The translations under genes were made by a program, and so were the position numbers. The notes under the pieces were generated by a model. That model was not told where the DNA came from. It ran no database searches and saw nothing but the letters and a program-made list of their open reading frames with translations. Source: Pseudomonadota bacterium (GTDB lineage: Bacteria; Pseudomonadota; Gammaproteobacteria; Burkholderiales; Burkholderiaceae_C). From it: DNA of 64,000 bases. Shown here piece after piece: positions 21,921 through 47,532 of this stretch. The stretch's first letter is position 1, and every line of letters starts with the position of its first letter. Location: NCBI GenBank assembly GCA_018241225.1, contig JAFEEG010000016.1, positions 179,872 through 243,871 of the forward strand, read 5' to 3'.

Positions 21921-23498
21921 CTACGGCGCGGCCAGGTCGATGTTCCAAGGCAGCAGAGCCTCGTAGTCATCGACGGTCTGCGCCAGAGGCAGCTTCTTGA
22001 ACAGCGCGACGAGGTAGCGGTAGGGCTCGATGTTGTTGGCCTTCGCTGTCTCGATGAGCGAATAGAGATTGGCACTCGCATTCGCGCCGCCCACGGTGTC
22101 GGCGAACAACCATGACTTGCGTCCGACCACGAAGGGACGGATCGCGTTCTCCACCGGGTTGGAGTCCAACGGCCAGGAGCCGTTTTCCAGGAACCGCACG
22201 AGCTTGGGCCACTGCCCATGCAGGTAGTGCAGCGCTTCGCCGAGCAAGCTTGAGGGCGCGACGGCGTGCAGATGCGTGAGCAGCAACCGCTCGATCTCGC
22301 GCACGACGGCGGCGCTGTAGCGCGAGCGCAGCCGCAGTCGACGCGCGGGCGTCCAGTCCCTGGCCAACGCCTCTGCGCGGTACAGCTTGCCAATGAGCCG
22401 CACGAACCGCGTCGCGACCTGGTCAGGCGAACGAGCTGCCTTCGGTATGGCTTCCTCGGCCTTGATCAGCGGTCGACGTGCGTGAACCCAGCATCCAAGG
22501 TGCGTGAGACCACCGGCCTTCGCGATGCCGTTGTAGACCTCGTAGCCATCACTCATGAGCGTGGTGCCGGGGCGGATGCCGGCGTAGAGCTTTTCCGCGT
22601 GCACGGCGCCGCGCCCCGGTGCATAGGCAAACAGCCGTACCGGTGGACCGGTACCGTTCATCTGCGCCCACATAAAGCTCTTCGTCTGTGCCTTGCGCCC
22701 GGGCTCCTTCAGGACCTGGACGGTGGTCTCGTCCCCGTAGATCAGATCCGAGTCCAACAGGTGATCGCGCAGCAGATTGATGACGGGCTGCACGGCCTGG
22801 CCAATGCGCACCACGCCCGCGGCCAGGGTGTTGCTCACGATGTCGCCGCCGAAGCGACGCAGCAGTGCGGCTGTGCGGTATAGCGGCATGCCGAACTGGT
22901 ACTTGCCGGTGATGACCCAGGCTTGCGCCTCCTCGGTGAGCAGACCGCGCGGGATGATGCGCGCTGGCGTCGGCGCGACCTTCAGGCTCAGGTCACAGCA
23001 GGGGCAGGCGTACTTGATGCGGTGGTGCTGCAGCACGCGCACCTGCTCGGGGATGACGTGCATCTGCTCGCTGACCTCGGCTCCAATCTCCACCAGGGCA
23101 TGGCCATCGTGAGCGCAGACACGCTCGGACTCTGGCAACTCGTGGCGCACGATGTCGCGCGGCAGCGCCGGGTCCAGCGGCTTGCGACCGCGCTTCTTGC
23201 GTTGGTGACCCGCGACCGGTGTCGATTCCTCTTCCTCGGTCTCGGCCGGCGGCGTCTGATCGGTCGGGGCCAGCGCCTCGGCCTCGTTGAGGAACAGGTC
23301 CTTCTGATCGGTGCCGCGGGCCTCGCTCTTGGCGGCGAACAGCTGGCGCTGCAGCGACCTCAGCCGCTCCAGTGCGAGGTCTCGCTCGGTGGTGGCCACC
23401 CGCAGTGCGCCGGCCAGCGCGTCGCGCTCGGCAATGAGCGCGGCGAGTTCTTCAGCGGTGATGGTGGCAGGCGACGACACGCCAGCTTGGATCGGCAT
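21921..23498 (-). CDS. tnpC: IS66 family transposase TnpC
   Basis: A 525-residue DDE transposase. An N-terminal coiled-coil-like leucine-rich region (ALIAERDALAGALRVATTER) is followed by a zinc-finger-like segment (YACPCCDLSLKV) and the IS66 catalytic core: first Asp in YGDETTVQV (about residue 252), second Asp in SDGYEVYNG (about 318), and Glu in NPVENAIRPF (about 448). The C-terminal domain ends with NNIEPYRYLVALFKKLPLAQ, the usual IS66 tail. No internal stop or frameshift is seen. It acts with TnpA and TnpB in transposition. Confidence 0.93.
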   Translation of the reverse strand: MPIQAGVSSPATITAEELAALIAERDALAGALRVATTERDLALERLRSLQRQLFAAKSEARGTDQKDLFLNEAEALAPTDQTPPAETEEEESTPVAGHQRKKRGRKPLDPALPRDIVRHELPESERVCAHDGHALVEIGAEVSEQMHVIPEQVRVLQHHRIKYACPCCDLSLKVAPTPARIIPRGLLTEEAQAWVITGKYQFGMPLYRTAALLRRFGGDIVSNTLAAGVVRIGQAVQPVINLLRDHLLDSDLIYGDETTVQVLKEPGRKAQTKSFMWAQMNGTGPPVRLFAYAPGRGAVHAEKLYAGIRPGTTLMSDGYEVYNGIAKAGGLTHLGCWVHARRPLIKAEEAIPKAARSPDQVATRFVRLIGKLYRAEALARDWTPARRLRLRSRYSAAVVREIERLLLTHLHAVAPSSLLGEALHYLHGQWPKLVRFLENGSWPLDSNPVENAIRPFVVGRKSWLFADTVGGANASANLYSLIETAKANNIEPYRYLVALFKKLPLAQTVDDYEALLPWNIDLAAP

Positions 23499-23532
23499 GC
23501 CCCATCATCGTTCCTACATCACCAGTTCTTTT

Positions 23533-23883
23533 TTAAGCCACGCTGGCGTAGCGCAGATGGGGGTGGCGTTGGACTACCGCGATGTCGATTCCCTCCAGCA
23601 ACCAGTGCAGTTGCTCGGCCGTCAGCGTGGGAGCCGCTTCGGCCGAAGGCCAGATGAACCTGTCCTTCTCGAGGCGCTTGAGCAACAGCCAGAAGCCGTT
23701 GCGCTCCCAGCCCAGGATCTTCACCCGGTCGCGCCGGCGGTTGCTAAACACGTACGCGCACGAGGCGAACGGATCCAGGCCAAGGGCCTGCTCCACCAGC
23801 ACTGCCAGGCCATTGATGTTCAGCCGGAAGTCCACCGGCTCGCGGTGCAGGTAGACCTTCAGTCCTTCGTCGAAGCGGAACAC
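23533..23883 (-). CDS. tnpB: IS66 accessory protein TnpB
   Basis: A 116-residue protein with the TnpB hallmark pattern: VYLHREPVDFRLNINGLAVL, DPFASCAYVFSNRRRDRVKI, LGWERNGFWLLLKRLEKDRF and a final QLHWLLEGID. Required for transposition of IS66-type elements, but the biochemical role is not settled. The start overlaps the end of tnpA by 25 nt, so the two genes are probably translationally coupled. Confidence 0.93.
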   Translation of the reverse strand: MFRFDEGLKVYLHREPVDFRLNINGLAVLVEQALGLDPFASCAYVFSNRRRDRVKILGWERNGFWLLLKRLEKDRFIWPSAEAAPTLTAEQLHWLLEGIDIAVVQRHPHLRYASVA

Positions 23884-24302
23884 CGCACCCTCCCGAACGC
23901 CTGGACGACTTCGTCGACGATGCGCAGCTCAACACCGCGAAGATCGATCGCCACGCCGTTGGGCAAGCGTGCCTGCACGTCCATCACGGCGGCGATGTCG
24001 TCGCCGCTTCGGGCCCCGGTTGGCGACACTGGCGGCAACGAGACCGCCACGAACGCCGAAGGCGTCGGCGCTACGTTGGCAACGGCCTTGCGCGCTCGAC
24101 CACCGTGCCCATGCTCGCGAAGCCACCGGCTCACCTGGTTGGCATTGACGCCGCACTCGCGCGCCAGGCGTGACACCGAGGCGCCAGGCTGCCGACACAG
24201 TGCCACCAGTTCCAGCTTCGCCGCTTCGTCGTACACGCTGCGTCCGTCGCTCTTGTGCCCCACCACCAGTCGGCGCTTGAGGTCTTCCAACTCGTCTGAC
24301 AT
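23859..24302 (-). CDS. tnpA: IS66 accessory protein TnpA (helix-turn-helix)
   Basis: A 147-residue protein. The N-terminal half has a helix-turn-helix: YDEAAKLELVALCRQPGASV, SRLARECGVNANQVSRWLRE. The C-terminal half contains LPNGVAIDLRGVELRIVDEV, as in IS66 OrfA. It probably binds the element ends or regulates the operon. The ATG at 24302 is only 4 nt from the foot of a perfect hairpin and has no separate ribosome-binding site, which is unusual. Confidence 0.92.
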   Translation of the reverse strand: MSDELEDLKRRLVVGHKSDGRSVYDEAAKLELVALCRQPGASVSRLARECGVNANQVSRWLREHGHGGRARKAVANVAPTPSAFVAVSLPPVSPTGARSGDDIAAVMDVQARLPNGVAIDLRGVELRIVDEVVQAFGRVRCSASTKD

Positions 24303-25098: not shown

Positions 25099-25965
25099 CT
25101 AAGGCGACCCTCTGGCCGCCTGTTGGCGCGCATCAGGTGCGTCAGGCAGGCGTCCGAGCCAAAGGGACGTCAGTTCGGCCCTGTTGTGTACCCCGAACTT
25201 GGCATAGATCGACTTAACGTGGATATGCGTTGTGTTCGGGCTTTGGCCAAGGAGAGCAGCTGTGGCCTTTTCGCTTCTCCCGTCCAACAGCTCCAGCAAC
25301 ACCTTGCGTTCCGTCGCAGTGAGCGCAGCCTTGGCAATGAGCAGCCCGTGGCTGAGAACCTGTTGCCGGTAGAGCCAACGCAAGCCCCGCAACACCAGAC
25401 CGAAAGGCTCCTTGTCGGTGGATGCAAATCGCGGCGCCTGCGCGCTGCGAAAGACAAAGATGTGCACGCGCACATCCTCATTGAGGGAGCAGCGCATGGA
25501 CATGCTGTCCCGATGGCCGACGGCCAGGTAGTGGCGCTGGTAATGCGGGCCGTCGAACCACTCGGGCGGGAGCGCCTCGAAGAGCAGCCTGGTGCGGAAT
25601 GTCTCGTCACCGGCCATTGCGAGGACTTGCGAGATGTCCAGCGACTGCGACCACAACGCGTCGAACTGCTCCTGGACGGATGCGGCAACGTGCGCGAGGG
25701 GCTTGAGCAGCTTGACGATGCGCGGGCGCCAGCCATTCAAAGGATCTCCTGAAGCCGGGCTTGGCAAGCGAACGACCACCGACCAGAGGGCGTTCTGCGC
25801 GCCGAAGATGGCACACAGCCGCGATAGCAGGTGCGCAACGGCGGCGTCGCCGTCACCGACCGCAAAGTCCGCGAGCTCATCCCAGAGTGCGAATACCGTG
25901 TCGTCGGGCCGACTGTCGGAAGTGGCCGGCAGAGGTGCTGTCGGCGCTGGCTTGGTGGGACTCAT
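25099..25965 (-). CDS. LuxR-type transcriptional regulator
   Basis: A 288-residue regulator. The C-terminal 60 residues are a LuxR/GerE helix-turn-helix: LTATERKVLLELLDGRSEKA, then TAALLGQSPNTTHIHVKSIY and AKFGVHNRAELTSLW. The N-terminal 200 residues (FGAQNALWSVVVRLP, GHRDSMSMRCSLNEDVRVHI) fit a PAS/GAF-like sensor fold but no named domain is evident; no receiver aspartate is present. Its start is only 56 nt from the start of the divergent Cache-like gene, which makes it a candidate regulator of the signalling operon at 26022-32224. The signal is unknown. Confidence 0.85.
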   Translation of the reverse strand: MSPTKPAPTAPLPATSDSRPDDTVFALWDELADFAVGDGDAAVAHLLSRLCAIFGAQNALWSVVVRLPSPASGDPLNGWRPRIVKLLKPLAHVAASVQEQFDALWSQSLDISQVLAMAGDETFRTRLLFEALPPEWFDGPHYQRHYLAVGHRDSMSMRCSLNEDVRVHIFVFRSAQAPRFASTDKEPFGLVLRGLRWLYRQQVLSHGLLIAKAALTATERKVLLELLDGRSEKATAALLGQSPNTTHIHVKSIYAKFGVHNRAELTSLWLGRLPDAPDARQQAARGSP

Positions 25966-26021: not shown

Positions 26022-26555
26022 ATGATCCAAGCGGCAATCGTATTGCAGGGTGAATCTGATGGGCTACCGGCATCGCCCGAACCGTCTCCCCAAGTTTGGG
26101 TAGGCAGGCGATCAGCTCTATTGATCCTGCTGTCGTCCCTGTCGAGTCGGATTGCCGCCGCTGCCGAGTTCGGCACCAAGGAAGAAGCCGTCGCCATGGT
26201 CAAGCGCGTGCAGGCAAAGTTCAAGGCGGAAGGCGCAGAGGCCACCTTCAAATCGGTATCGGACAAGGCGGACCCTGAGTTCCATGACCGCGACCTCTAC
26301 CCCTTCGTCTATGACATGGCGGGCGTCAACGTCGCCCATGGCGCGCGGCCGGCACTGATCGGCAAGAACCTGCTCACGCTGAAGGACCAGGACGGCAAGT
26401 TCCTCATCCGCGACATGCGCGACCTCGTCAATGCCAAGGGCAGCGGCTGGTACGACTACAAGTGGCCCAATCCAATTACCAACAAGATCGAAGACAAGAC
26501 TAGCTATGTCGAGCGAATGGGCGACTACTGGGTTGGCGTGGGCGTCTACCGCTAG
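26022..26555 (+). CDS. exported single-Cache-domain protein
   Basis: A 177-residue protein with a hydrophobic segment after an arginine pair (GRRSALLILLSSLSSRIAAA, cleavage near AAAEFG), so it is probably exported. The rest matches a single Cache domain of the type found in chemoreceptors: KEEAVAMVKRVQAKFKAEGA, then DPEFHDRDLYPFVYDMAGVN, VAHGARPALIGKNLLTLKD and GSGWYDYKWPNPITNKIEDK, ending YWVGVGVYR. Cache domains bind small metabolites outside the cytoplasm. The start at 26022 is the only ATG upstream of the signal. It is 32 nt ahead of the hybrid kinase and may serve as its periplasmic sensor partner. Confidence 0.78.
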   Translation: MIQAAIVLQGESDGLPASPEPSPQVWVGRRSALLILLSSLSSRIAAAAEFGTKEEAVAMVKRVQAKFKAEGAEATFKSVSDKADPEFHDRDLYPFVYDMAGVNVAHGARPALIGKNLLTLKDQDGKFLIRDMRDLVNAKGSGWYDYKWPNPITNKIEDKTSYVERMGDYWVGVGVYR

Positions 26556-26587
26556 GCCTCCCGGCATACCCGCCTCAGGACGGACGC

Positions 26588-28972
26588 GTGGGCAACTTCA
26601 ATAACTTGTCCATCCAGTTCAAGGCCACCTTCGCCTCGGCATTGCTGCTGGCCTGCCTGCTTGGCCTGGGAGCTCACGCCTACATGACGTCCTTCCGGTC
26701 TGCCGCTGGACTGAACGTTCTGTCCGGCGAACTCGTGCCTAAGCAGGAAGCCTTCTCCGATGTCGGTGCCGAGGTGGCCGCGACACATATGAAGATCTTC
26801 CGCTACGTCTCCTGGGCGAGCAACGGCCTGGCCCCCGGTGTGCTCAAGCGCCTGGAAGACGAGATCGCGCTCGACCTGAACACGCTGTCGGCCCAAATCG
26901 AAGCGTTGACGCGGCGCCCCGATCTGTCCGAGCACGAAAGCGTCGCATTGCAGGCCCTCGACGCGAAGTGGCGCAATTGCAGAGCGCAGGCACTCGACAC
27001 TCTCGATGTGGGGCGCACAGACGCCGCAATGGCCACGATGATGATCGGCCAGACAGACGACAGCTTCGAGGCGGTCGACGCCGACCTACGCAACATGACG
27101 CAGGCGATGATCTCCAACGCCACGGCGCTGCAACGCCAGCTCTCTGCACAGGCGCAGCGCAATCGTCAGGTGGTCGTGTGGGTGGGGTTGCTTGGCCTGC
27201 TGATCAGCTTCGGGGTGGCGATGATGATCAGCCGCTCGATCGTTCGTCCGATCCGCCAGATCACCAATGTCATGCAACGCCTGTCGACTGGACAGACGCA
27301 GGTCGAGCTGGACCACGGCGTGCGACGCGATGAGATCGGCAAGATGGCCGACGCCATCGAGATATTCCGTACGCACATCATGGAGAACGCGCGGCTCTTC
27401 AAGCAAATTGAGGAAAAGAGCATGCAGCTGGAGGCCGCCAGCGAGCACAAGTCGCAGTTTCTCGCCAACATGAGCCACGAGCTTCGCACGCCCATGAACG
27501 CCATCATCGGCGTCTCGGAGATGCTGCTCGAGGACGCGCGCGACCTCAATCGTACGGACGACATCGAGCCGCTCGAGCGTATCCTGCGCGCGGCGCAGCA
27601 TCTGCTTGCGCTCATCAACGACATCCTGGACCTTTCCAAGATCGAGGCAGGCAAGATGGAGCTCAACATCGAGTCTTTCGCTGTCGAGCCCCTCGTGCAG
27701 GATGTCATAGCGACCGTCCTGCCGATTGCCAAGAAGAACGGCAATGACTTGAAGTTCGTGTGCGCGGCTGACGTGGGGGTCCTGACCGCGGACCCAATGC
27801 GGCTGCGCCAGGCGCTGCTCAACCTGGCGAGCAACGCTGCGAAGTTCTCGGAGCGCGGCACGATAACCGTGCGGGTGCAGCGACGTTCGGTCTCCGGACG
27901 TGAATGGGTCGATCTCGAAGTGACTGATACCGGCATCGGGATGACGCCCGAGCAGGTCTCCCGCCTGTTCCAGGAATTCGTTCAGGCCGATGCCTCGACG
28001 ACAAGAAAGTACGGTGGCACGGGCCTCGGGCTGGCGATCAGCCAGCGATTCTGCAGAATGATGGGCGGCGAGATTTCCGTGCGTAGCGAACTTGGGCGCG
28101 GCTCCACCTTCACGATCCATCTTCCGGCGGACGCAGCGCAACAGACCGGCATCACGGCCCAGGACCGCGCCCCCGCGCTCGCGCAGCGGGCGCCCTCTGC
28201 GCAGCAGCGCACCGTACTCGTGATCGACGACGACCCGACGGTGCGCCAGCTCATGGAGCGGCACCTTCTGCGCGAAGGCTTCCAGGTCGTCACGGCGGAT
28301 AGTGGCGCGGCAGGCATCGCGCAGGCGAAGGAGCGGCATCCGAGCGCCATCACGCTGGACATCATGATGCCGGACATCGATGGCTGGACGGTGCTCGCCG
28401 CTCTCAAGGGCGACCCGCGCCTGCAGGACATCCCGGTCGTGCTGGTGACGATCGTGGACGAGAAGCAGCGTGGTTACACGCTGGGTGCCACCGACTACCT
28501 GATCAAGCCCGTGAACCGCGAGCGCCTGGCCAGCACTCTGCGCACGATCTGCCGCCGTGAAGGTGGGCAGCTGTTGATCGTCGAGGATGACGAGGCGGCG
28601 CGAATGCTCGCGCGCCACGGAATGGAGCGCGACGGCTGGGAGGTGGCCGAGGCTGCGAATGGACGACTCGCGCTGCACGCGATTCAGGCATGCGAACCCG
28701 ATGCGATCGTGCTCGACCTGATGATGCCCGAGATGGATGGCTTTGAATTCCTGACCGAGCTTCGACGCCATGCGCGCTGGCGCGACATCCCCGTGGTCGT
28801 CGTCACGGCACTGGACCTGTCGGCCGAGGATCACCGGCGCCTGAACGGCTTCGTCGCCAGCGTAATCCAGAAGAGCGGACAGGACCGCGAGCAGCTGCTG
28901 CATGAGGTCAGCACCCAGCTCGCGTCGCTCACGCTGCGCGAAGACGCCCCGACGCTGGAGCCCGCCACATGA
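26588..28972 (+). CDS. hybrid sensor histidine kinase with two C-terminal receivers
   Basis: A 794-residue membrane kinase starting at GTG 26588. Order: TM1 (about 10-32), periplasmic helical bundle, TM2 (about 197-217), HAMP, coiled-coil linker, HisKA with phospho-accepting His in NMSHELRTPMNAIIG (about residue 297), HATPase (N-box NLASNAAKFSE, G1 DTGIGMT, G2 YGGTGLGLAIS), receiver 1 (IDDDPT, phospho-Asp in TLDIMMPD about 589, Lys in DYLIKP), receiver 2 (VEDDEAA, Asp in VLDLMMPE about 709). It has no Hpt domain, so phosphate must pass to a separate protein. The start of the downstream receiver overlaps the stop (ATGA). Confidence 0.93.
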   Translation: MGNFNNLSIQFKATFASALLLACLLGLGAHAYMTSFRSAAGLNVLSGELVPKQEAFSDVGAEVAATHMKIFRYVSWASNGLAPGVLKRLEDEIALDLNTLSAQIEALTRRPDLSEHESVALQALDAKWRNCRAQALDTLDVGRTDAAMATMMIGQTDDSFEAVDADLRNMTQAMISNATALQRQLSAQAQRNRQVVVWVGLLGLLISFGVAMMISRSIVRPIRQITNVMQRLSTGQTQVELDHGVRRDEIGKMADAIEIFRTHIMENARLFKQIEEKSMQLEAASEHKSQFLANMSHELRTPMNAIIGVSEMLLEDARDLNRTDDIEPLERILRAAQHLLALINDILDLSKIEAGKMELNIESFAVEPLVQDVIATVLPIAKKNGNDLKFVCAADVGVLTADPMRLRQALLNLASNAAKFSERGTITVRVQRRSVSGREWVDLEVTDTGIGMTPEQVSRLFQEFVQADASTTRKYGGTGLGLAISQRFCRMMGGEISVRSELGRGSTFTIHLPADAAQQTGITAQDRAPALAQRAPSAQQRTVLVIDDDPTVRQLMERHLLREGFQVVTADSGAAGIAQAKERHPSAITLDIMMPDIDGWTVLAALKGDPRLQDIPVVLVTIVDEKQRGYTLGATDYLIKPVNRERLASTLRTICRREGGQLLIVEDDEAARMLARHGMERDGWEVAEAANGRLALHAIQACEPDAIVLDLMMPEMDGFEFLTELRRHARWRDIPVVVVTALDLSAEDHRRLNGFVASVIQKSGQDREQLLHEVSTQLASLTLREDAPTLEPAT

Positions 28973-29337
28973 AGATCCTGTACGTCGAGGACAACGACGA
29001 CAACATCTACGTCATCAGGCACCGCTTGGGCCGCGCCGGATACACGATCATCGTCGCAACTGACGGCGAGTTGGGCGTTTCGATGGCCAGGACCGAACGG
29101 CCCGACCTGATCCTGATGGACTTGCGGCTGCCGGGGCTTGACGGTTGGGAGGCGACGCGCCAACTCAAGGCCATGAGCGAGACGCGCAGCATCCCGGTCA
29201 TCGCGCTCTCGGCGCATGCCATGGCGGGGGACCGGCAAAAGGCGCTCGCCGCAGGCTGCGAAGACTATGACACCAAGCCGGTCGACATCGCCAGGCTGCG
29301 CGCGAAGATCCAGGCGCTTCTGCCGCCCGCCGGATGA
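28969..29337 (+). CDS. single-domain response regulator (CheY/DivK-like)
   Basis: A 122-residue receiver without output domain. Acidic pocket YVEDNDDNIY, phospho-Asp in LILMDLRLPGLDGWE, Thr/Ser in VIALSAHAM and Lys in YDTKPVD are all present, so it should be phosphorylated. The DNDDNIYVIR start is DivK-like. Overlaps with both neighbours by four bases (ATGA at 28969 and at 29334) show tight coupling to the hybrid kinase and to the permease fusion. It may shuttle phosphate between the kinase and the other proteins of the locus. Confidence 0.93.
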   Translation: MKILYVEDNDDNIYVIRHRLGRAGYTIIVATDGELGVSMARTERPDLILMDLRLPGLDGWEATRQLKAMSETRSIPVIALSAHAMAGDRQKALAAGCEDYDTKPVDIARLRAKIQALLPPAG

Positions 29338-31025
29338 CGCCGCCGTCGAACGTCGCGTATGCCGTGGACGACAAGCCACCGGCCGGGGTCCTGATCCTCG
29401 CCGGGCTGCAGCACGTGGCACTCATGTCGATGGACCTTGTCTACCCGGTGCTGCTGGCACAGGCAACCGGCGCTTCGCCGCAGATCGCGGCGGCAATGGT
29501 TAGCCTCACGCTGGTAGCCATGGCCGTCGGCACGCTGATGCAGGTGATCGGCGTCGGTCCGGTGGGCTCGCGCTTCCTGTGCCAGCCGAGCACGTCGGTC
29601 ATCTATCTCGTCCCGTCGCTGCTGGCTGCGAAGCTAGGTGGCCTGCCCCTCGTCTTCGGCATGACGATGGCGGCGGGCGCCGCGGAAGTGCTCCTGGCGC
29701 GGGCCTTGAAGCACATGCGCTCGCTGCTGCCGCCCGAGATCAGCGGCCTGGTGGTGCTGCTGATCGGCGTGGCAACGGGCATTGTCGGGTTGCGCAGCAT
29801 CTTCAGCGCCGCGGGCGGACACGGCGACCTGCAGGACCTGGGCATTGGTTTCGCAACCATCCTGGTCATGCTGGTGCTCAACATCTGGAGCCGTGGCATG
29901 TTGCGGCTGCTCAGCGTGCTCATCGGCATGGTGGCGGGCTACGCGATGGCGGTCCTGACGGGACGCACCAGCTTTGGCGCGCTCGACGAAAGCGCCTTGA
30001 TCGCCCTGCCGCAGGTCAGCCACCTGGGCTGGTCCTTCGAGCCGAGCCTGCTGATCCCGTTCGGCGTGGCGGCGATCGCGGCCACGCTCAAGGTCACGGG
30101 TAACGTGACCACATCGCAGAAAGCGAATGACAACGATTGGAAGCGCCCAGACCTGCAATCAATCTCTCGTGGTGTTCTCGCCGATGGCCTGGCGACTGTC
30201 GTCGCAGGCGGCGTCGGCGCGTCGGGCCTCAGTTCGTCCACGTCGGCCGTCGGCCTGGCTGCTGCGACCGGTGTTCTCAGCCGGCGCATCGGCTATGCGA
30301 TCGCAGCGATGCTGCTGGTGCTGGCCTTCGTGCCGCGACTGGGGATGCTGTTCTACCTGATGCCGCGGGCCGTCGCGGGTGCTGCCCTGGTGTTTTCCTC
30401 CACGTTCATTGTGGTGAACGGGCTGGAGATCATCACCTCCCGCCTGCTGGACGCGCGAAAGACGATCGTCATCGGCCTGGCGCTCGTCCTCGGTTTGGCC
30501 GTGGACATCTTTCCCGCATTTTTCCAGTCGCTCCCGGCGGAGATGCAGACGCTCTTCGGCACGTCGATGGCCTTCGGCACCATCACGGCTCTAGGGCTGA
30601 ACGCGATTTTTCGCATCGGCGTGATGAAGCGCACCAGCCTCGTGCTGCCTGTTGGGCCGCTGGACGGAGACAAGCTCTATGACTTCATGGAGGTCGCCGG
30701 CCAGCGCTGGGGCGCGCGCCGTGACGTCATCGAACGCGCCCAGTTCAATCTCGCCCAGTCAGTCGAGACGATCATCGTCGGCTGTGCTCCCCAGAGTCCG
30801 CTGCAGGTCGATGCGACCTTCGACGAGTTCAACCTGGAAGTGCGCGTTTCCTATTTGGGCGCGGCCCTCGCGCTTCCCGAGCAGCGGCCCTCGAAGGCGG
30901 AGATCATCGCCTCGGAAGAGGGCGAGCGAAAGCTCGCGGGCTACATGCTGCGCCGCTACGCCGACCGGGTCACGAGCACGCACAAGGCGGGCCGCTCGAC
31001 GGTCCTGTTCCACTTCAACCATTGA
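29334..31025 (+). CDS. NCS2-like nucleobase permease fused to a C-terminal HATPase-like domain
   Basis: A 563-residue fusion. Residues 1-440 form an NCS2/SLC23-type permease: TM1 QH motif in LAGLQHVALMSMDLVYPVLL, the GPVGSRFLCQPSTSVIYLVP segment, and a TM10-like region ASGLSSSTSAVGLAAATGVL followed by SRRIGYAI. The usual substrate residues (Glu in TM8, Gln-Asn in TM10) appear replaced (LKVTGNVTTSQK; SSSTSA), so transport of a normal purine is uncertain. Residues 450-563 look like an anti-sigma-type HATPase fold: helix VIERAQFNLAQSVETIIVG, strand DEFNLEVRVSYLG, then RKLAGYMLRRYADRV and STVLFHFNH. The ATP-lid glycines are degenerate. Its place inside a signalling operon argues for a transporter-like receptor. 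Confidence 0.85.
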   Translation: MTPPSNVAYAVDDKPPAGVLILAGLQHVALMSMDLVYPVLLAQATGASPQIAAAMVSLTLVAMAVGTLMQVIGVGPVGSRFLCQPSTSVIYLVPSLLAAKLGGLPLVFGMTMAAGAAEVLLARALKHMRSLLPPEISGLVVLLIGVATGIVGLRSIFSAAGGHGDLQDLGIGFATILVMLVLNIWSRGMLRLLSVLIGMVAGYAMAVLTGRTSFGALDESALIALPQVSHLGWSFEPSLLIPFGVAAIAATLKVTGNVTTSQKANDNDWKRPDLQSISRGVLADGLATVVAGGVGASGLSSSTSAVGLAAATGVLSRRIGYAIAAMLLVLAFVPRLGMLFYLMPRAVAGAALVFSSTFIVVNGLEIITSRLLDARKTIVIGLALVLGLAVDIFPAFFQSLPAEMQTLFGTSMAFGTITALGLNAIFRIGVMKRTSLVLPVGPLDGDKLYDFMEVAGQRWGARRDVIERAQFNLAQSVETIIVGCAPQSPLQVDATFDEFNLEVRVSYLGAALALPEQRPSKAEIIASEEGERKLAGYMLRRYADRVTSTHKAGRSTVLFHFNH

Positions 31026-31033
31026 ATGACCAC

Positions 31034-32224
31034 ATGAACCCGCTGGAGGCGCGCCTGCTGGTCGTCGACGACAACGAGGACAACCGCTACACGCTGCGCC
31101 AGCGCCTGAAACGCCTGGGCCATACCTCCATCGAAACAGCGACCAACGGCCGGGAGGCGCTCGATCTGCTGGGCCAGCGCGAGTTCGATCTCGTGCTGCT
31201 CGACGTAATGATGCCGGAGCTGAACGGCTACGAGGTGCTAGAGCAGCTCAAGGCAGACCCGCGCCGGCGCGACGTTCCCGTCATCATGATTTCCGCGCTC
31301 GACCAGATCGAGAGCGTGATCCGCTGCGTGGAGCTAGGCGCCGAGGACTACCTGCCCAAGCCGTTCAATCCGACGCTGCTGGCAGCGCGGGTGGGTGCGA
31401 GCCTGGAGAAGAAGAGGTTGCGCGACGAACTGCACGCGAGCCTGAATCGCCTCGAAAAGGAACTGGAGGCGGCCCGACGGCTGCAGGTCAGTATGCTGCC
31501 GCGCGAGTTTCCGGCGTTCACCGAGCAGCAGCCAGTTGACATTCATGCGCTGATGCAGGCGGCGCGCGAGGTAGGTGGCGACCTTTACGATTTTTTCTAC
31601 TCGTCGCCGGAGCGACTGTTCTTTCTTGTCGCCGATGTCTCGGGCAAGGGCGCCGACGCCGCGATGTTCATGGCCCGAACGCGCAGCCTCGTTCGCATGG
31701 CCGTCGAGCTACTGCACGAGGTCGGTGCCACGGATGTCACGCCGGGCCGGGTGCTGGACACGGTCAATCGCGAGCTGTGCCAGAACAACCGGGAGAAGAT
31801 GTTCGTCAGCGTGTTCTTGGGTGCTCTGGACGTGCGGACCGGGGGACTTGAATTTTCGAATGCCGGCCACCCGCCACCCTATAGGATCAGCGTTGCGGGT
31901 GGTCTGGAGCGCCTCGGCGGTACCCCGCAGGCGCCACTGGGGATCCGGCAGGCCACGAGCTACACGACCAGCACTCTCGATCTGGACAAGGCTGACACGC
32001 TGTTTGTCTGCACGGACGGCGTTGTGGAGGCATCGGACGAGGACCAGAACATGTATGGAGACGAGCGGCTGCAAGCGCTGCTGAACTCAACGACTGAATC
32101 GAGCGCGCAGGCCCGGGTAACACAGGTGAAGGACGCGATCGATTCTTTTGCGGCGGGTGCCCCGCCGGCAGACGACGTGACGATGCTCGTGCTGAGCTGG
32201 CGGCCAACTGCAGCCATCCGTTGA
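31034..32224 (+). CDS. response regulator with PP2C/SpoIIE-type phosphatase output (RsbU-like)
   Basis: A 396-residue protein. Residues 5-125 are a receiver (VVDDNEDNRY, phospho-Asp in LVLLDVMMPELNGYE, Lys in LPKPFNP). A coiled-coil linker (RDELHASLNRLEKELEAARR) joins it to a PP2C-type phosphatase with metal-binding acidic residues in REVGGDLYDFF and DVSGKGADAAMFMA and a late acidic motif in CTDGVVEASDED. Such proteins dephosphorylate STAS antagonists. I prefer ATG 31034; TTG 31022, overlapping the permease stop, is an alternative start. It ends 12 nt from the convergent STAS gene, its likely substrate. Confidence 0.9.
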   Translation: MNPLEARLLVVDDNEDNRYTLRQRLKRLGHTSIETATNGREALDLLGQREFDLVLLDVMMPELNGYEVLEQLKADPRRRDVPVIMISALDQIESVIRCVELGAEDYLPKPFNPTLLAARVGASLEKKRLRDELHASLNRLEKELEAARRLQVSMLPREFPAFTEQQPVDIHALMQAAREVGGDLYDFFYSSPERLFFLVADVSGKGADAAMFMARTRSLVRMAVELLHEVGATDVTPGRVLDTVNRELCQNNREKMFVSVFLGALDVRTGGLEFSNAGHPPPYRISVAGGLERLGGTPQAPLGIRQATSYTTSTLDLDKADTLFVCTDGVVEASDEDQNMYGDERLQALLNSTTESSAQARVTQVKDAIDSFAAGAPPADDVTMLVLSWRPTAAIR

Positions 32225-32236
32225 CTGGCAAACGTC

Positions 32237-32587
32237 TCAGCCCAGCTGTCGGATCGCCTCGTCGCAGGTGCCCTGGATCGCGAACGCATCGAGCAGGCCG
32301 CCCATCTCGAACAGTTCTCGCACCTGGCCCTTGACGCTGCAGAGGATGAGCTGCGCGGCTCTTCGTTCCGCTTCATCCGCAGCGACGAGCAGGGCTCGGA
32401 ACGCTGCACTCGTCAAGTAGACGACCTGTTTCAGATCGACGAGGACGCGGGCTTCTCCCGCGCCGAGCAAGGCGCATAAGCGGGTCATGACCTGCTCCGC
32501 ATTCGTGCTGTCGATGCGGCCTGCAAGGGTCACGATACACACCTCGCCCTTCTTTGCTTCCTGGATCTGCAACGAACCTTCTGCCAT
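32237..32587 (-). CDS. STAS-domain anti-sigma factor antagonist
   Basis: A 116-residue single STAS domain. The start VCIVTLAGRIDSTNAEQVM and the central VLVDLKQVVYLTSAAFRALL match SpoIIAA/RsbV-type antagonists; Ser60 in TSAA is the predicted phosphorylation site, preceded by Thr59. A phosphorylated STAS protein is inactive; dephosphorylation by the PP2C protein would free it to bind the anti-sigma-type kinase encoded upstream (32605). It lies 17 nt after that kinase gene in the same operon. Two Cys (residues 37 and 83) are not part of the motif. Confidence 0.9.
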   Translation of the reverse strand: MAEGSLQIQEAKKGEVCIVTLAGRIDSTNAEQVMTRLCALLGAGEARVLVDLKQVVYLTSAAFRALLVAADEAERRAAQLILCSVKGQVRELFEMGGLLDAFAIQGTCDEAIRQLG

Positions 32588-32604
32588 GACTGATCCTCAT
32601 GCTC

Positions 32605-33027
32605 CTAGTTCAACTGTTTGGTGATTGTGACGTGGTTGGTTGCGCCAATTCGCGCATACGCCATCCTGTCAACAAGCTGGCGCACCATGTGCAGGCCCAC
32701 CCCTCCGGGACGTGGGCGCTGCCCAGGCTGGAGCGGTGCAACCGGGGATGCCTCGAGAGGATTGAATTTCGCGCCATCGTCATCGAACTCCAGCGTGACC
32801 GCGTTGTCGCTCACGCCGAAGGACACCGACAGTTCATGTGCACTATCGTCCGACCATGCGTACTTGATGATGTTGCTAACCATCTCGTCCAGTACAACCT
32901 GGAGCTGATTGATGGCCTGTACGGGAATGCAGTGCTGTTGGCCGAATTGCTCGAACGCTTGTTGCAGCTTCGGCAGGTTCGCCAAGTCGTTGCTAATCTT
33001 CACTTGCTCACTGGGAGCAATTGGCAC
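32605..33027 (-). CDS. RsbW/SpoIIAB-like serine kinase (anti-sigma factor type HATPase)
   Basis: A 140-residue stand-alone HATPase. N-box VVLDEMVSNIIKYAW, G1 EFDDDGAKFNP and G2 PGGVGLHMVRQLVDRM are complete, so ATP binding and STAS phosphorylation are plausible. It starts with GTG 33027 after GGGAAA. A TATAAT on the minus strand at 33056-33061, about 29 nt before the start, may be its -10 box; no good -35 is seen. Its binding target may be a sigma factor, but none is encoded in the window, so the output could instead be an enzyme or another switch protein. Confidence 0.88.
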   Translation of the reverse strand: MPIAPSEQVKISNDLANLPKLQQAFEQFGQQHCIPVQAINQLQVVLDEMVSNIIKYAWSDDSAHELSVSFGVSDNAVTLEFDDDGAKFNPLEASPVAPLQPGQRPRPGGVGLHMVRQLVDRMAYARIGATNHVTITKQLN

Positions 33028-34116: not shown

Positions 34117-34202
34117 GGGCCACATATGGCCCAAAACTTGACGACAGGGGTTCGCGGGTCTAATATGGCCCGCAAACCTACCTAACGGGTCGCATATGGC
34201 TC
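34117..34202 (+). promoter_or_regulatory. hipBA promoter with three operator-like boxes
   Basis: A strong sigma70-type promoter is readable: TTGACG (34138-34143), 17-nt spacer, TAATAT (34161-34166). Three related boxes surround it: GGGCCA-CATA-TGGCCC at 34117-34132 upstream of -35; GCGGGTC-N6-GGCCCGC at 34154-34173 across -10; and the weaker GGGTCGCATATGGCTC at 34187-34202 across the hipB start codon. This fits cooperative repression by HipB or HipBA binding to inverted repeats. The start codon itself is part of the third box. Confidence 0.72.
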
Positions 34203-34531
34203 ACGAAGCAACCAACCAACTCCCTCGAGAAGTGCGCTCGCGCCTTGAAGAGCTTGGCCGCAATATCCGGACTGCCCGCGTGCGCCGCCGCATGAGAACA
34301 GAGGACCTGGCCAAGGCCTGTGGCATTGGCCGGCGCTCCCTGTATCGCATCGAAAACGGCGAACCGGGCGTAGCCTTGGGCACAGTCATGGGCGTCCTTT
34401 GGACCCTCGGGCTCCTGGACACCTTCCGGGATGTCGCCAACCCTGACAAGGACGACCACGGAAAGATTCTTGAGGCAGCTTCCCGCCCTCAACGTCTGCA
34501 CACCCCCGTCTCCGAAGACAACGACTTCTGA
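34196..34531 (+). CDS. hipB: HipB-like antitoxin, XRE-type DNA-binding protein
   Basis: A 111-residue protein with an XRE helix-turn-helix: LGRNIRTARVRRRMRTEDLA, then KACGIGRRSLYRIENGEPGV. It neutralises the HipA kinase and represses the operon by binding the boxes at 34117-34202. The C-terminal tail (HTPVSEDNDF) is acidic. ATG 34196 was chosen because it is the first ATG behind the promoter and gives a full domain. The hipA start lies 12 nt downstream. Confidence 0.85.
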   Translation: MAHEATNQLPREVRSRLEELGRNIRTARVRRRMRTEDLAKACGIGRRSLYRIENGEPGVALGTVMGVLWTLGLLDTFRDVANPDKDDHGKILEAASRPQRLHTPVSEDNDF

Positions 34532-34543
34532 ACTCCGCCCCAC

Positions 34544-35824
34544 ATGGCTGACAAAGAAAACCTCTGCTACGTCTACACGCAACTGCCTGGCACCTTCGAG
34601 TGGGTCCCCTGCGCCTCGCTGAAAGTCAAGGAACTGGGAGCGGGGGCCTTTCAGGGCACCTTCACCTATGGCAAGCGATACCTGGTCCGCCAAAACGTCA
34701 TCGAGCTTGACCCCTTCCACCTCAAGCTCACCGACAAGCCGATGCAGTTCACGAAGCTCAAGGGCATCCCTGGGGCATTGCGCGACGCCAGTCCGGACGC
34801 CTGGGGCCGCCGTGTCATCCAGGCGCGGCTCGAGCGGGAGGAGTCGGAAATCTCGGAGATGGAGTATCTCCTCAACGGTCCTGATGACGGGGCCGGCAGC
34901 TTGCGCTTCGGTCTTTCCGCGCAGCCCCCTGGTCCTGCCAAGCCGTTCAATCGCACACACCAGCTCGAGGCCTTGACCAAGGCGGCTGAACAGCTGGAAG
35001 AAACTGGAAAACTGCCGTACGAGGTGCTCGAGGGCCTGGAGCCCGGTACCAGCATGGGGGGAGCGCGTCCGAAGGTCACAGTGGAAGACGACCATCGCAT
35101 CTATCTGGCCAAGCTCCCCGAAAAAGGAGACAGGCACAACATGCAGCGCATTGAGTACGCCACGCTCGAGCTTGCGCGCGCGGCGGGCCTCCACGTATGC
35201 GGAACGAGGATGGAGAAGGTTGGCAAAGCCGAAGCGCTGATGCTGCTGCGCTTTGACCGCGAGTGGAATCCTGACGCCGGCGCGTACGCTCGGCACGGCC
35301 TGGTATCCGGACTCACCGTCTTGGACGCAGAAGATGGCTACACCGGCCGCGAGCGCTGGTCGTACCTACTGCTCGCCGATGAACTGCGCCGCTGGTCCGC
35401 CAAGCCCGATGCCGACAGGCTCGAACTCTTCAAGCGCATGGTCTTCAACGCGATGGTCACGAACAACGACGACCATCCGCGGAACCACGCCATGCTGCGC
35501 ACGAGCGGCGGCTGGCGGCTGTCCCCAGCTTACGACATTGTTCCGGTGCCGCTCATCTCCCTGGAACGGCGGGACCTCGCGCTCGAGGCCGGGCGCTATG
35601 GCCGCGTGGCCAGCATCTACAACCTGCTGTCGGACTGCACAAGCTTCGGACTAGAGCACGACGAAGCGCGGCAAGTTATCCAGCAGCTGGTGCAGGCCGT
35701 TCAAGGCTGGCGCGAGGTGTTCGCCAGGCACCAAGTGGAGGAGCGCTCCATTGAACACATCTCTGGCGCCATCCTGCCGGAATGCTTTTTTCGCGAGGAG
35801 CCGCTCCCGACACCTCGGCCGTAG
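34544..35824 (+). CDS. hipA: HipA-like serine/threonine kinase toxin
   Basis: A 426-residue HipA-type kinase. An N-terminal subdomain (CYVYTQLPGTFEWVPCASLK) leads into the kinase core: the P-loop-like autophosphorylation segment EPGTSMGGARPKVTVEDD, the catalytic NNDDHPRNHAML (about residue 305) and the metal-binding DIVPVP. Known HipA proteins phosphorylate glutamyl-tRNA synthetase and cause growth arrest; related kinases have other targets. All catalytic residues appear intact. It is 12 nt behind hipB in a two-gene operon. Confidence 0.9.
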   Translation: MADKENLCYVYTQLPGTFEWVPCASLKVKELGAGAFQGTFTYGKRYLVRQNVIELDPFHLKLTDKPMQFTKLKGIPGALRDASPDAWGRRVIQARLEREESEISEMEYLLNGPDDGAGSLRFGLSAQPPGPAKPFNRTHQLEALTKAAEQLEETGKLPYEVLEGLEPGTSMGGARPKVTVEDDHRIYLAKLPEKGDRHNMQRIEYATLELARAAGLHVCGTRMEKVGKAEALMLLRFDREWNPDAGAYARHGLVSGLTVLDAEDGYTGRERWSYLLLADELRRWSAKPDADRLELFKRMVFNAMVTNNDDHPRNHAMLRTSGGWRLSPAYDIVPVPLISLERRDLALEAGRYGRVASIYNLLSDCTSFGLEHDEARQVIQQLVQAVQGWREVFARHQVEERSIEHISGAILPECFFREEPLPTPRP

Positions 35825-45555: not shown

Positions 45556-45837
45556 GGCCGTCTCGAAATTCTGGAGGGGGGCACATTCTGATCTCAAACT
45601 GGTGCCGGAGCTGCCCGAGTGCGCCGCTTTCAAAGATTCCAAATGCAACTTATCGGTGGCCTTTCGAATTGCGGTAGGGGTAGGTCGCAGGGTTGCCAGG
45701 TGGAATGCTACGTGCAGCCTCCCTTGCATGCCATGTGCATTGGGGCCAGACTAAATGGTGGGATCGCAGCGCGGCCCCCGACTCGCCCGGCCAGCCGAAC
45801 GCCCGGCGGGCACTGCCTGTTCGGCGGAGGACTTCTC

Positions 45838-47532
45838 GTGCAAGATCTCGTCACCGCCTCGGACGGGCACGCCCAATCTGCCGCGCAAGGGCGTGCGCAT
45901 CGCTACAGCCGAGAATGGGCCAAAGCGGATGTCGTCGCTGGCTTGACGGTAGCGGCTGTGGTGATTCCCAAAGCGCTGGCGTACGCCAGCGTCGCAGGAC
46001 TGCCGATCCAGGTGGGGCTCTATACGGCCTTTTTGCCGATGGTGATCTATGCCTTCCTCGGCACCTCGCGACCGCTTAGCGTCAGCACCTCGGCGACACT
46101 TGCAATCCTGACCGCAGCCGCACTGGGCAAGGTCGTACCTGACGGCAACCTGGCCAGCTTGACGACGGCCACCGCAACCCTGACGGCGCTTGTGGGGGTC
46201 ACGCTCCTATTGGCATCACTTCTGCGCCTCGGCTTCGTCGCGAACTTCATATCGGACCCCGTGCTCACGGGCTTCAAGGCTGGCGTCGCCATCGTGATCG
46301 TTGCGGACCAATTGCCCAAGCTCATTGGCATTCACTTTGCCAAGGGACCGTTTTTCCACAGCGTGTACGAGATCCTGGCGGGGCTGCCCCATCTGTCGCC
46401 CGCAACGCTGGCAGTCGGCGTGGGCACCGTGTGCGTCCTGTTGATACTCGAACATCTGTGGCCGAAAGCACCGGCGCCCCTCATCGCCGTCGCTCTCGGG
46501 ATCGCCGCCGTACCGCTGCTCAATCTGTCATCGCACGGCGTGGAAGTGGTAGGCAATGTCCCGACGGGTCTGCCTCCCCTGACCCTGCCCGACCGCTCGA
46601 TGATCCTGGCGCTCTGGCCGCCTGCCGTGGGCATTGCGCTCATGAGTTTCACCGAGACGATCGCAGCCGGCCGTGCCTTTGTGCGCGACGACGAGCCGAT
46701 GCCTTCGGCCAACCGCGAGTTGCTCGCAACCGGGGCCGCCAACCTTGGAGCGGCATTCCTGGGCGCCATGCCCGGTGGCGGTGGCACCACTCAGACAGCG
46801 GTCAATCGATTGGTCGGTGCGCGCACCCAGGTTGCCGAACTGGTCACCGCAGCAGCCACGCTCTGCACGATGCTGGTGCTGGGCCCATTCATCGCGATGA
46901 TGCCCCATGCCACGCTGGCGGCAGTGGTCATCGTGTACTCCGTGACCCTGATCAAACCGTCCGAATTTCGGGCCATCCTGTCGATTCGCAAGACAGAGTT
47001 CGTTTGGGCGTTGGTTGCGGCCGTGGGTGTCGTACTGCTCGGCACGCTGCAGGGCATCGAGGTTGCCATTACCGTCTCGCTTCTCGCACTTGCGCATCAG
47101 GTGTCCGATCCGACGCTAAACGTCCTCGGGCGCAAGCCAGGAACCAGGCTTTTCAGACCGACCTCGCCGGAACACCCCGATGACGAGAAGATCAACGGAC
47201 TTCTGATTCTGCGGCCCGAAGGGCGGATCTTTTTTGCGAATGCTGAACGCCTCGCCCACAAGATGTCGCAACTGATTTCGGAGGCCAATCCACGCGTGAT
47301 CGTGCTCGACCTGCGCGCAGTGTTCGACATCGAGTACACGGCGCTGAAGATGCTGACGGCTGCAGAGAAGAAGACGCGCGAAAGCGGCAAGGAAGTCTGG
47401 TTCGTCGGCATGACGCCGGGCGTCATGCAACTGGTACGGCGATCACCGTTGAACGATGCGCTAGGCCAGGAGCGAATGTTCGCTCGGCTGGAAGACGCCG
47501 TTGCAAAGTTTGAAACGACTGCCAAGGCATAG
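45838..47532 (+). CDS. SulP-family anion transporter with STAS domain
   Basis: A 564-residue transporter. GTG 45838 stands 7 nt after GCGGAGG; the longer open frame upstream is not membrane-like. The membrane part starts DVVAGLTVAAVVIPKALAYA SVAGLP, the SulP signature, and includes ISDPVLTGFKAGVAIVIVAD and AMPGGGGTTQTAVNRLVGAR. The last 120 residues are a cytoplasmic STAS domain (GLLILRPEGRIFFANAERLA, RVIVLDLRAVFDIEYTALKM). SulP proteins move sulfate, bicarbonate or dicarboxylates. The substrate here is not clear. Confidence 0.92.
   Translation: MQDLVTASDGHAQSAAQGRAHRYSREWAKADVVAGLTVAAVVIPKALAYASVAGLPIQVGLYTAFLPMVIYAFLGTSRPLSVSTSATLAILTAAALGKVVPDGNLASLTTATATLTALVGVTLLLASLLRLGFVANFISDPVLTGFKAGVAIVIVADQLPKLIGIHFAKGPFFHSVYEILAGLPHLSPATLAVGVGTVCVLLILEHLWPKAPAPLIAVALGIAAVPLLNLSSHGVEVVGNVPTGLPPLTLPDRSMILALWPPAVGIALMSFTETIAAGRAFVRDDEPMPSANRELLATGAANLGAAFLGAMPGGGGTTQTAVNRLVGARTQVAELVTAAATLCTMLVLGPFIAMMPHATLAAVVIVYSVTLIKPSEFRAILSIRKTEFVWALVAAVGVVLLGTLQGIEVAITVSLLALAHQVSDPTLNVLGRKPGTRLFRPTSPEHPDDEKINGLLILRPEGRIFFANAERLAHKMSQLISEANPRVIVLDLRAVFDIEYTALKMLTAAEKKTRESGKEVWFVGMTPGVMQLVRRSPLNDALGQERMFARLEDAVAKFETTAKA

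Follow-up and report, generated by a model that had tools for sequence, protein, structure and literature searches.

Gene content of the locus

The window analysed here is a 64,000-nucleotide stretch (G000:C7:179872-243871; contig JAFEEG010000016.1 of assembly GCA_018241225.1) from the 6.4 Mb genome of a Pseudomonadota bacterium of the Burkholderiaceae_C. A seven-gene locus within it includes an NCS2-type permease with a C-terminal tail that, from profile comparison, appears to be a degenerate RsbW-type HATPase domain. An earlier note, made from the sequence alone, had listed these seven genes with their domains; all were found at their coordinates, and the domains were identified by Pfam. The features are listed below by window coordinates and strand.

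26022-26555 (+): Cache-domain exported protein; dCache_2 (Pfam, 1.4e-21) and sCache_2, preceded by a hydrophobic stretch at about residues 32-50
26588-28972 (+): membrane hybrid histidine kinase; HAMP, HisKA (His297), HATPase_c and two Response_reg domains (Asp591, Asp710) by Pfam
28969-29337 (+): stand-alone receiver (Asp51) by Pfam
29334-31025 (+): NCS2-type permease with probable pseudo-HATPase tail, 563 amino acids; Xan_ur_permease at residues 20-390 (Pfam, 9e-50)
30090-30092 (+): codon of K253, at the site of the glutamate of transmembrane helix 8 (TM8; UraA E241/UapA E356), by alignment
30243-30245 (+): codon of S304, at the site of the TM10 Gln/Glu (UraA E290/UapA Q408), by alignment
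30651-31022 (+): predicted degenerate RsbW-type HATPase domain, residues 440-563 (about 124 amino acids), by profile comparison
31022-32224 (+): receiver-PP2C phosphatase, SpoIIE-type (Pfam SpoIIE, 3.3e-48), receiver Asp61
32237-32587 (-): STAS switch protein (Pfam STAS, 1.4e-18), switch-loop serine Ser60 kept
32605-33027 (-): HATPase_c_2 serine kinase of the RsbW/SpoIIAB type (Pfam, 4.1e-20), N- and G-box residues kept

No Hpt domain was listed by Pfam for the hybrid kinase. Four-base overlaps join the kinase to the receiver (28969-28972) and the receiver to the permease (29334-29337), as the earlier note had described; a third, between the permease and the phosphatase (31022-31025), exists only if a TTG start is used. 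The locus encodes together the SpoIIE-type PP2C, the STAS protein with a switch serine and the RsbW-type kinase that define a partner switch. Ser60 of the STAS protein aligns with the serine after the Asp in SpoIIAA chain 1th8_B, which we take to be the phosphorylated residue, and the sole PDB match of the window kinase was RsbW (7.7e-7). Consistent with the claim that the locus encodes no sigma factor, no sigma-factor domain was listed by Pfam for the seven proteins. No STAS match was found by Pfam in the permease itself, and an Rfam scan of the window gave nothing above thresholds.

The permease core and its C-terminal tail

The permease scored 169.9 bits with Xan_ur_permease against a Pfam cut-off of 27, and its PDB match was a uracil permease (2.6e-12). 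According to the available parts of two papers, E241 and E290 of UraA lie in the substrate site, a triple alanine mutant that includes H245 serving as a negative control (PMC11362169), and E356 and Q408 of UapA contact the purine and are required there (PMC3405029). Alignment to UraA by phmmer placed K253 of the window permease at E241 and S304 at E290. The TM8 Glu was present in 49/49 ordinary NCS2 proteins and in 0/37 tailed proteins (window included), which hold R (9), K (6), N (5), H (1) or, in 16/37, D. This last is the residue of the UapA mutant E356D, for which an 18-fold increase in affinity and abolished transport are given in the available text of PMC3405029. Similarly, the TM10 Gln/Glu was present in 49/49 ordinary and 0/37 tailed proteins (S304-A305 in the window); the Asn that follows it in the TM10 motif was kept in 18/37 tailed proteins. 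The ordinary set was drawn from 50 loci, of which 49 gave a protein; L005 was unmatched by the permease profile and was left out. The window permease missed the NCBIfam cut-offs for ncs2 (178 vs 291.8 bits), pbuX (248.5 vs 414.15 bits) and NCS2_1 (32.9 vs 40 bits), the last of which was narrowly passed by three named relatives (40.7-44.8 bits).

On the evidence of sequence trees, the window permease is a member of a distinct proteobacterial clade. The tailed proteins formed one side of a branch with support of 100/100 (22 of 71 rows), and a quick tree built from 89 rows grouped all 37 with one tail-less protein (L135 12284-13618) at 99. The same 38 proteins also grouped at 99 with two NCS2-HATPase proteins of a second kind (L124 7830-9680 and L125 7117-8946), in which the TM8 Glu is kept and the TM10 site is T or D. 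HATPase_c_2 matched the first of these at 4.7e-4, below the curated cut-off, and gave no match within an E-value of 0.1 in the second. As both keep the TM8 Glu and yet carry HATPase-like tails, gain of the tail may have preceded loss of the Glu. At L135 (9489-13618), a fused permease is divergent from a dCache_2 protein and the tail-less member of this clade.

Beyond the alignment column that holds window residue 430, the ordinary proteins had a median of 16 residues (n = 49) versus 124-166 in the 37 tailed proteins; the ordinary exceptions were three with 53-56 and two with about 200 extra residues of another kind. The NCS2 permeases of L022 and L031, with about 200 extra C-terminal residues, end in a sequence that resembles OHCU decarboxylase in its motif. 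A tail profile, built in part from some of the 37 tailed proteins that it finds, matched 37/37 tailed and 0/49 ordinary proteins, and also recognised the HATPase region of a PP2C-HATPase protein. When the tails were compared, profile to profile, with the RsbW-type kinases encoded close to these loci, the result was 91% (E-value 1e-6) with 15 tails, 95.8% (7.6e-9) with 27 tails and 96% (4.2e-9) with 37 tails, the last over 114 columns, nearly the whole length. Six control profiles (STAS, receiver, PP2C, Cache, and the DHp and HATPase_c parts of the histidine kinase) and 20 column-shuffled kinase profiles each reached no more than 1.2% in the 27-tail comparison; the HATPase_c control rose to 2.4% with 37 tails. 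Single tails showed weak contact with Pfam HATPase_c_2 (1/15 at 0.024; L130 at 0.012), and a PDB profile search with the tail returned only ribosomal-protein matches (E-values 0.7 and 1.1). Judged by this whole-domain homology, the tail is an RsbW/SpoIIAB-type HATPase beyond what chance would give, which bears out the HATPase-like C-terminus proposed in the earlier note.

The ATP-binding residues were tallied in 27 tails. The N-box Asn was present in 0/27 and the G1 Asp in 1/27, and the three G2 glycine positions held Gly in 0/27, 4/27 and 0/27, respectively. The N-box Glu (16/27), the G1 Gly (24/27) and an Asp aligned with D120 of the kinase (23/27) were kept, and new conserved residues were found at G456, W459, R468, E478 and F496-D497-E498 (22 to 25 of 27; W459 in 24, D497 in 25 and E498 in 24). 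In seven aligned neighbouring kinases, no variation was seen at the Glu and Asn of the N-box, the two Asp of G1 or the three Gly of G2; across a wider set (n = 11), the N-box E and N were present in 11/11, with G1 reading DDA for DDG in three and DSG in one. The STAS serine was present in 13/13 aligned neighbours, and the acidic residues of the neighbouring PP2C appeared by eye to be kept in 10. Because its ATP-binding residues are lost, the tail is probably without kinase activity, i.e., a pseudo-kinase domain.

The four most decayed tails, with 4-7 of 13 consensus residues compared to 9-13 in the other 23, were from genomes G803, G887, G820 and G530. SpoIIE phosphatase was not found by Pfam in G803 and G887, while a single weak match, counted as above the cut-off, was obtained in G820 (1.8e-10) and in G530 (1.8e-4). 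The pattern fits the loss of a partner, in a grouping made after seeing the data, where three of the four tails are one clade and SpoIIE was sought in the genomes of only some of the other 23 tails.

Distribution and gene neighbourhood of tailed permeases

Permease-HATPase fusions, which the earlier note had proposed to seek elsewhere, were present in relatives that carry the same tail. Six genomes of a 200-genome family sample had listed matches beyond residue 500 (G000, G197, G018, G182, G013 and G180). The tail profile was found in 9/369 genomes of a class sample, one of them (G965) with a PP2C-HATPase protein, in 6/398 of a phylum sample, two of them weak (G720, dynamin-like, and G586), and in 8/160 genomes of the order of G484. 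The PP2C-HATPase protein L101 was excluded from the permease counts, and the weak match L106 was dropped as a dynamin-like protein. The named carriers, all plasmid records, were Azospirillum thermophilum (two), Candidatus Thiodictyon syntrophicum (two) and Pseudoroseomonas cervicalis (one); the metagenome-assembled genome SZAS-59 was also a carrier (93%). The five proteins of the three named carriers are recorded only as 'solute carrier family 23 protein', a name that would hide any role in signalling. An apparently free-standing tail domain in Thiodictyon was rejected as the remnant (last TM helix and tail) of another permease copy. This remnant of a third fused permease (L110 13067-13588) lies directly upstream of a STAS gene. 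Tandem fused-permease copies, one incomplete and partly masked, were identified at L044 (7776-9164 and 10800-12707).

The neighbourhood was surveyed at 35 loci, the window included, with narrow home-made profiles whose presences are lower bounds; tandem pairs were counted once, and L077 (a 3 kb contig with the tail cut off) was dropped. Within 8 kb, at least 15 loci had a STAS gene, 13 a PP2C, 12 a kinase, 13 both STAS and PP2C, and 11 all three. A histidine-kinase core was found at 9 and a Cache domain at 2, and L135 adds a Cache neighbour by Pfam. At six control loci (four plain and two of the second kind), STAS, PP2C and kinase were found in 0/6 and a histidine-kinase core in 1/6. The neighbours identified at the loci without STAS were metabolic or unrelated (thiamin, a thiamine pyrophosphate enzyme, electron transfer flavoprotein-ubiquinone oxidoreductase, glutamate dehydrogenase, kelch and GDSL lipase).

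Uniform Pfam searches of 20 genomes placed STAS within 8 kb of 11/23 tailed permeases and SpoIIE within 8 kb of 10/23. With tandem copies merged and a truncated contig removed, STAS was found at 10/20 tailed loci vs 1/18 plain NCS2 permeases of the same genomes (Fisher p 0.004), and SpoIIE at 9/20 vs 0/18 (p 0.001), kinship being uncorrected and the genomes having been chosen for carrying the fusion. The table held one row per permease; five second gene pieces and two sub-cut-off matches (G375 C1:399166 and G299 C1:1497572) were omitted, and G865 C1:813700 and G691 C24:241665 were removed from the plain set for their second-kind HATPase tail. STAS was near one plain row only, at 7.9 kb, and the reading frame of that row (G1064 C80) is broken.

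Conservation of the neighbourhood, which the earlier note had proposed to score, was found in gene content and not in gene order. Neither this result nor the C-termini of the relatives, which have the tail, refutes the reading in that note. The window and L009 share the order Cache, histidine kinase, receiver, permease and PP2C, converging on kinase and STAS. The order was kinase-STAS-permease against PP2C-receiver-histidine kinase in L040, and PP2C divergent from kinase-STAS-permease followed by histidine kinase-receiver in L076. In L083, permease-STAS-kinase was followed by receiver-histidine kinase-PP2C on the opposite strand; L043 read PP2C-kinase-STAS-permease, and L096 and L097 read STAS-permease-PP2C. 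The STAS and permease genes were directly adjacent in several genomes. In two genomes of one genus (L078 and L079), the permease lies beside a histidine kinase and receiver and has an N-terminal extension of about 285 residues. Pfam identifies this extension as a GAF domain in L079 (6.7e-15); in L078 it was recognised by N-terminal similarity only. At L130 (7961-10534), a STAS match was seen on the opposite strand within the 5' part of an over-long permease open reading frame; the permease probably starts later, with STAS as a divergent neighbour.

Three further sets of genes flank the locus in the window. A LuxR-type (GerE) regulator at 25099-25965 (-) is divergent from the Cache-kinase operon and may be an output regulator. 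An IS66-type transposase set lies at 21921-24302 (-), with DDE_Tnp_IS66 identified by Pfam and the accessory reading frames by eye only. Just downstream, at 34196-35824 (+), a helix-turn-helix protein and a HipA-type protein resemble a toxin-antitoxin pair.

Interpretation and comparison with known systems

We put at about even the chance that the permease-derived protein is the membrane component of a sigma-free, two-component-controlled partner switch, with the tail docking STAS and the core serving chiefly as receptor or anchor. The proposal builds on the composition of the module, the homology and degeneracy of the tail, the loss of binding residues and the recurring neighbourhood, all of which are read from the sequence. 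The Cache protein and the hybrid kinase would sense an envelope signal, and phosphotransfer to the receiver-PP2C would alter the extent of STAS dephosphorylation, opposing STAS's own HATPase kinase. Unphosphorylated STAS would dock on the RsbW-like pseudo-HATPase tail, and the conformation of the permease would set the grip of the tail on STAS, adding a second signal to the switch. The membrane protein would thereby take the place of a sigma factor, or act besides one, as an extra partner. Because the nucleobase-binding residues of UraA and UapA are lost, we think that the core is chiefly a membrane receptor or anchor. STAS docking, the direction of the signal, the ligand and the output are what we infer. 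Most secure is that permease and switch act in one pathway at the 13 to 15 of 35 loci where they lie side by side, and next that the tail is a docking, not a catalytic, domain; least secure are what the ligand is and which way information flows. The broader claim, that a proteobacterial permease family gave up nucleobase transport and became membrane receptors presenting a catalytically dead anti-sigma-kinase domain to STAS, as a sigma-free, membrane-bound target, is tentative and falls somewhat short of even chances.

Several observations weigh against this proposal. Pfam found no match in the window tail, in the full protein or with the tail alone, and a plain sequence profile of the kinases found 0/37 tails. 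The AlphaFold model of the tail, made from two sequences, had the order H-H-E-E-H-H-E-E at low confidence (pLDDT 59.7; 36.7 for the full-length permease, also from two sequences). For the tail, the structure prediction proposed in the earlier note was only suggestive: the Foldseek list was rich in HATPases (PDK, RsbW, SpoIIAB and UsfX), but no E-value was below 0.001 and two H-NOX heme proteins were among the top five. The tail-less clade member of L135 also lacks both contact residues, so the residues can be lost where there is no tail, and the loss of nucleobase residues could mean a new substrate, not lost transport. Furthermore, the window STAS gene lies outside the permease operon and is convergent to it, and at 20/35 loci no STAS gene was found within 8 kb; at these, the partner is therefore elsewhere or the tail has another role.

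The earlier note had cast the permease as a receptor reporting a purine-like ligand to the switch. A receptor-like role gains support because the contact residues are lost in 37/37 tailed proteins and an N-terminal extension (GAF in L079) occurs; the HATPase-related tail and the link to the switch at 13-15/35 loci also stand. The purine ligand finds no support in the binding residues or the neighbourhood, and this part of the reading is weakened because K253 and S304 replace E241 and E290 of UraA. Homologues of guaD, puuD and xdh-like genes were absent from the window and from the open reading frames of 28 loci (four purine-catabolism queries; L124-L136 not included), and purine catabolism was not found as a general context. 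Genes of the purine-catabolism type do lie near two named relatives: guaD and puuD are close to one Azospirillum copy, and two subunits of xanthine-dehydrogenase type are encoded about 8 kb away from the pair of Thiodictyon permeases. The signal may therefore be purine-related.

The permease could itself be the output. It would then transport a changed substrate, non-nucleobase or modified, and would be gated by unphosphorylated STAS docking on its tail, comparable to the in-cis STAS of SulP. The permease domain is retained across the clade, none of the seven locus proteins is an evident alternative output, and three named relatives just pass an NCBIfam purine/pyrimidine permease cut-off. The ascorbate carriers of the superfamily are without the TM10 Gln/Glu and have an altered specificity, according to the available part of PMC3405029. 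Metabolic genes, guaD/puuD and thiamin genes among them, also occur close to relatives, but no metabolic neighbourhood is consistent among the loci. As the TM8 Glu, termed 'irreplaceable' in UapA in the same available text (PMC3405029), is missing in 37/37 and the GAF fusion suggests signalling, we regard the transporter explanation as doubtful.

RsbW-type domains dimerise, and the tail might serve to dimerise or stabilise the members of a divergent permease family, with the adjacent switch reflecting shared regulation or chance. The 20/35 loci without STAS nearby would agree with this, as would the UraA dimers mentioned in the available part of PMC11362169. However, STAS and PP2C are associated with tailed permeases above the plain permeases of the same genomes, one gene set recurs in several orders, and the most decayed tails sit where SpoIIE is absent or weak, with the limits on these comparisons given above; this explanation is distinctly unlikely. 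It is very improbable that the tail has remained an active serine kinase with STAS as its substrate. At L096 and L097, no separate kinase was detected near STAS-permease-PP2C, but HATPase_c_2 genes are present elsewhere in these genomes (G779 and G1064), and nearly all tails have lost the N-box Asn, the G1 Asp and the Gly residues of G2.

The proposed membrane-bound switch resembles the SpoIIE/SpoIIAA/SpoIIAB and RsbU/RsbV/RsbW systems in its PP2C phosphatase, its STAS protein with a serine and its RsbW-type kinase; it differs in that no sigma factor is encoded and a predicted extra RsbW-like domain without the ATP residues sits on a membrane permease. HsbR/HsbA has a receiver-type PP2C input, as here, and acts on RpoS, unlike here; we know of no permease-HATPase partner for it. 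It is likewise a partner switch in a Gram-negative bacterium, Pseudomonas aeruginosa, as given in the available part of PMC6482189. With NCS2/NAT (SLC23) proteins such as UraA, UapA and PbuX, the window permease shares the family domain and overall sequence, but the TM8 Glu and TM10 Gln/Glu are gone, the NCBIfam cut-offs are missed and a probable HATPase-derived domain is added at the C-terminus. Searches of the open-licence PMC literature, judged by titles and abstract openings, turned up no description of an NCS2/HATPase fusion or of a permease partner of STAS. The available part of a review of STAS-only proteins treats STAS in SLC26, and the words 'permease' and 'HATPase' do not appear in it (PMC8256260).

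The window also encodes a sulfate permease of the SulP type to which a STAS domain is fused, at 45619-47532 (+). The SulP and NCS2 folds are related, with 7+7 inverted repeats, and SulP/SLC26 proteins likewise join a permease to a C-terminal domain related to partner switching; the present protein would be their mirror image, with the STAS-partner type of domain attached to the permease and STAS encoded as a protein of its own. For partner switches that have no sigma factor nearby, the output is often unknown, and a membrane protein with a dead kinase-domain copy would be a concrete candidate target for them. If the proposal is true, a bacterial SLC23-type carrier has been turned into a receptor, with exact residue losses, as the counterpart of the STAS-bearing SulP permeases.

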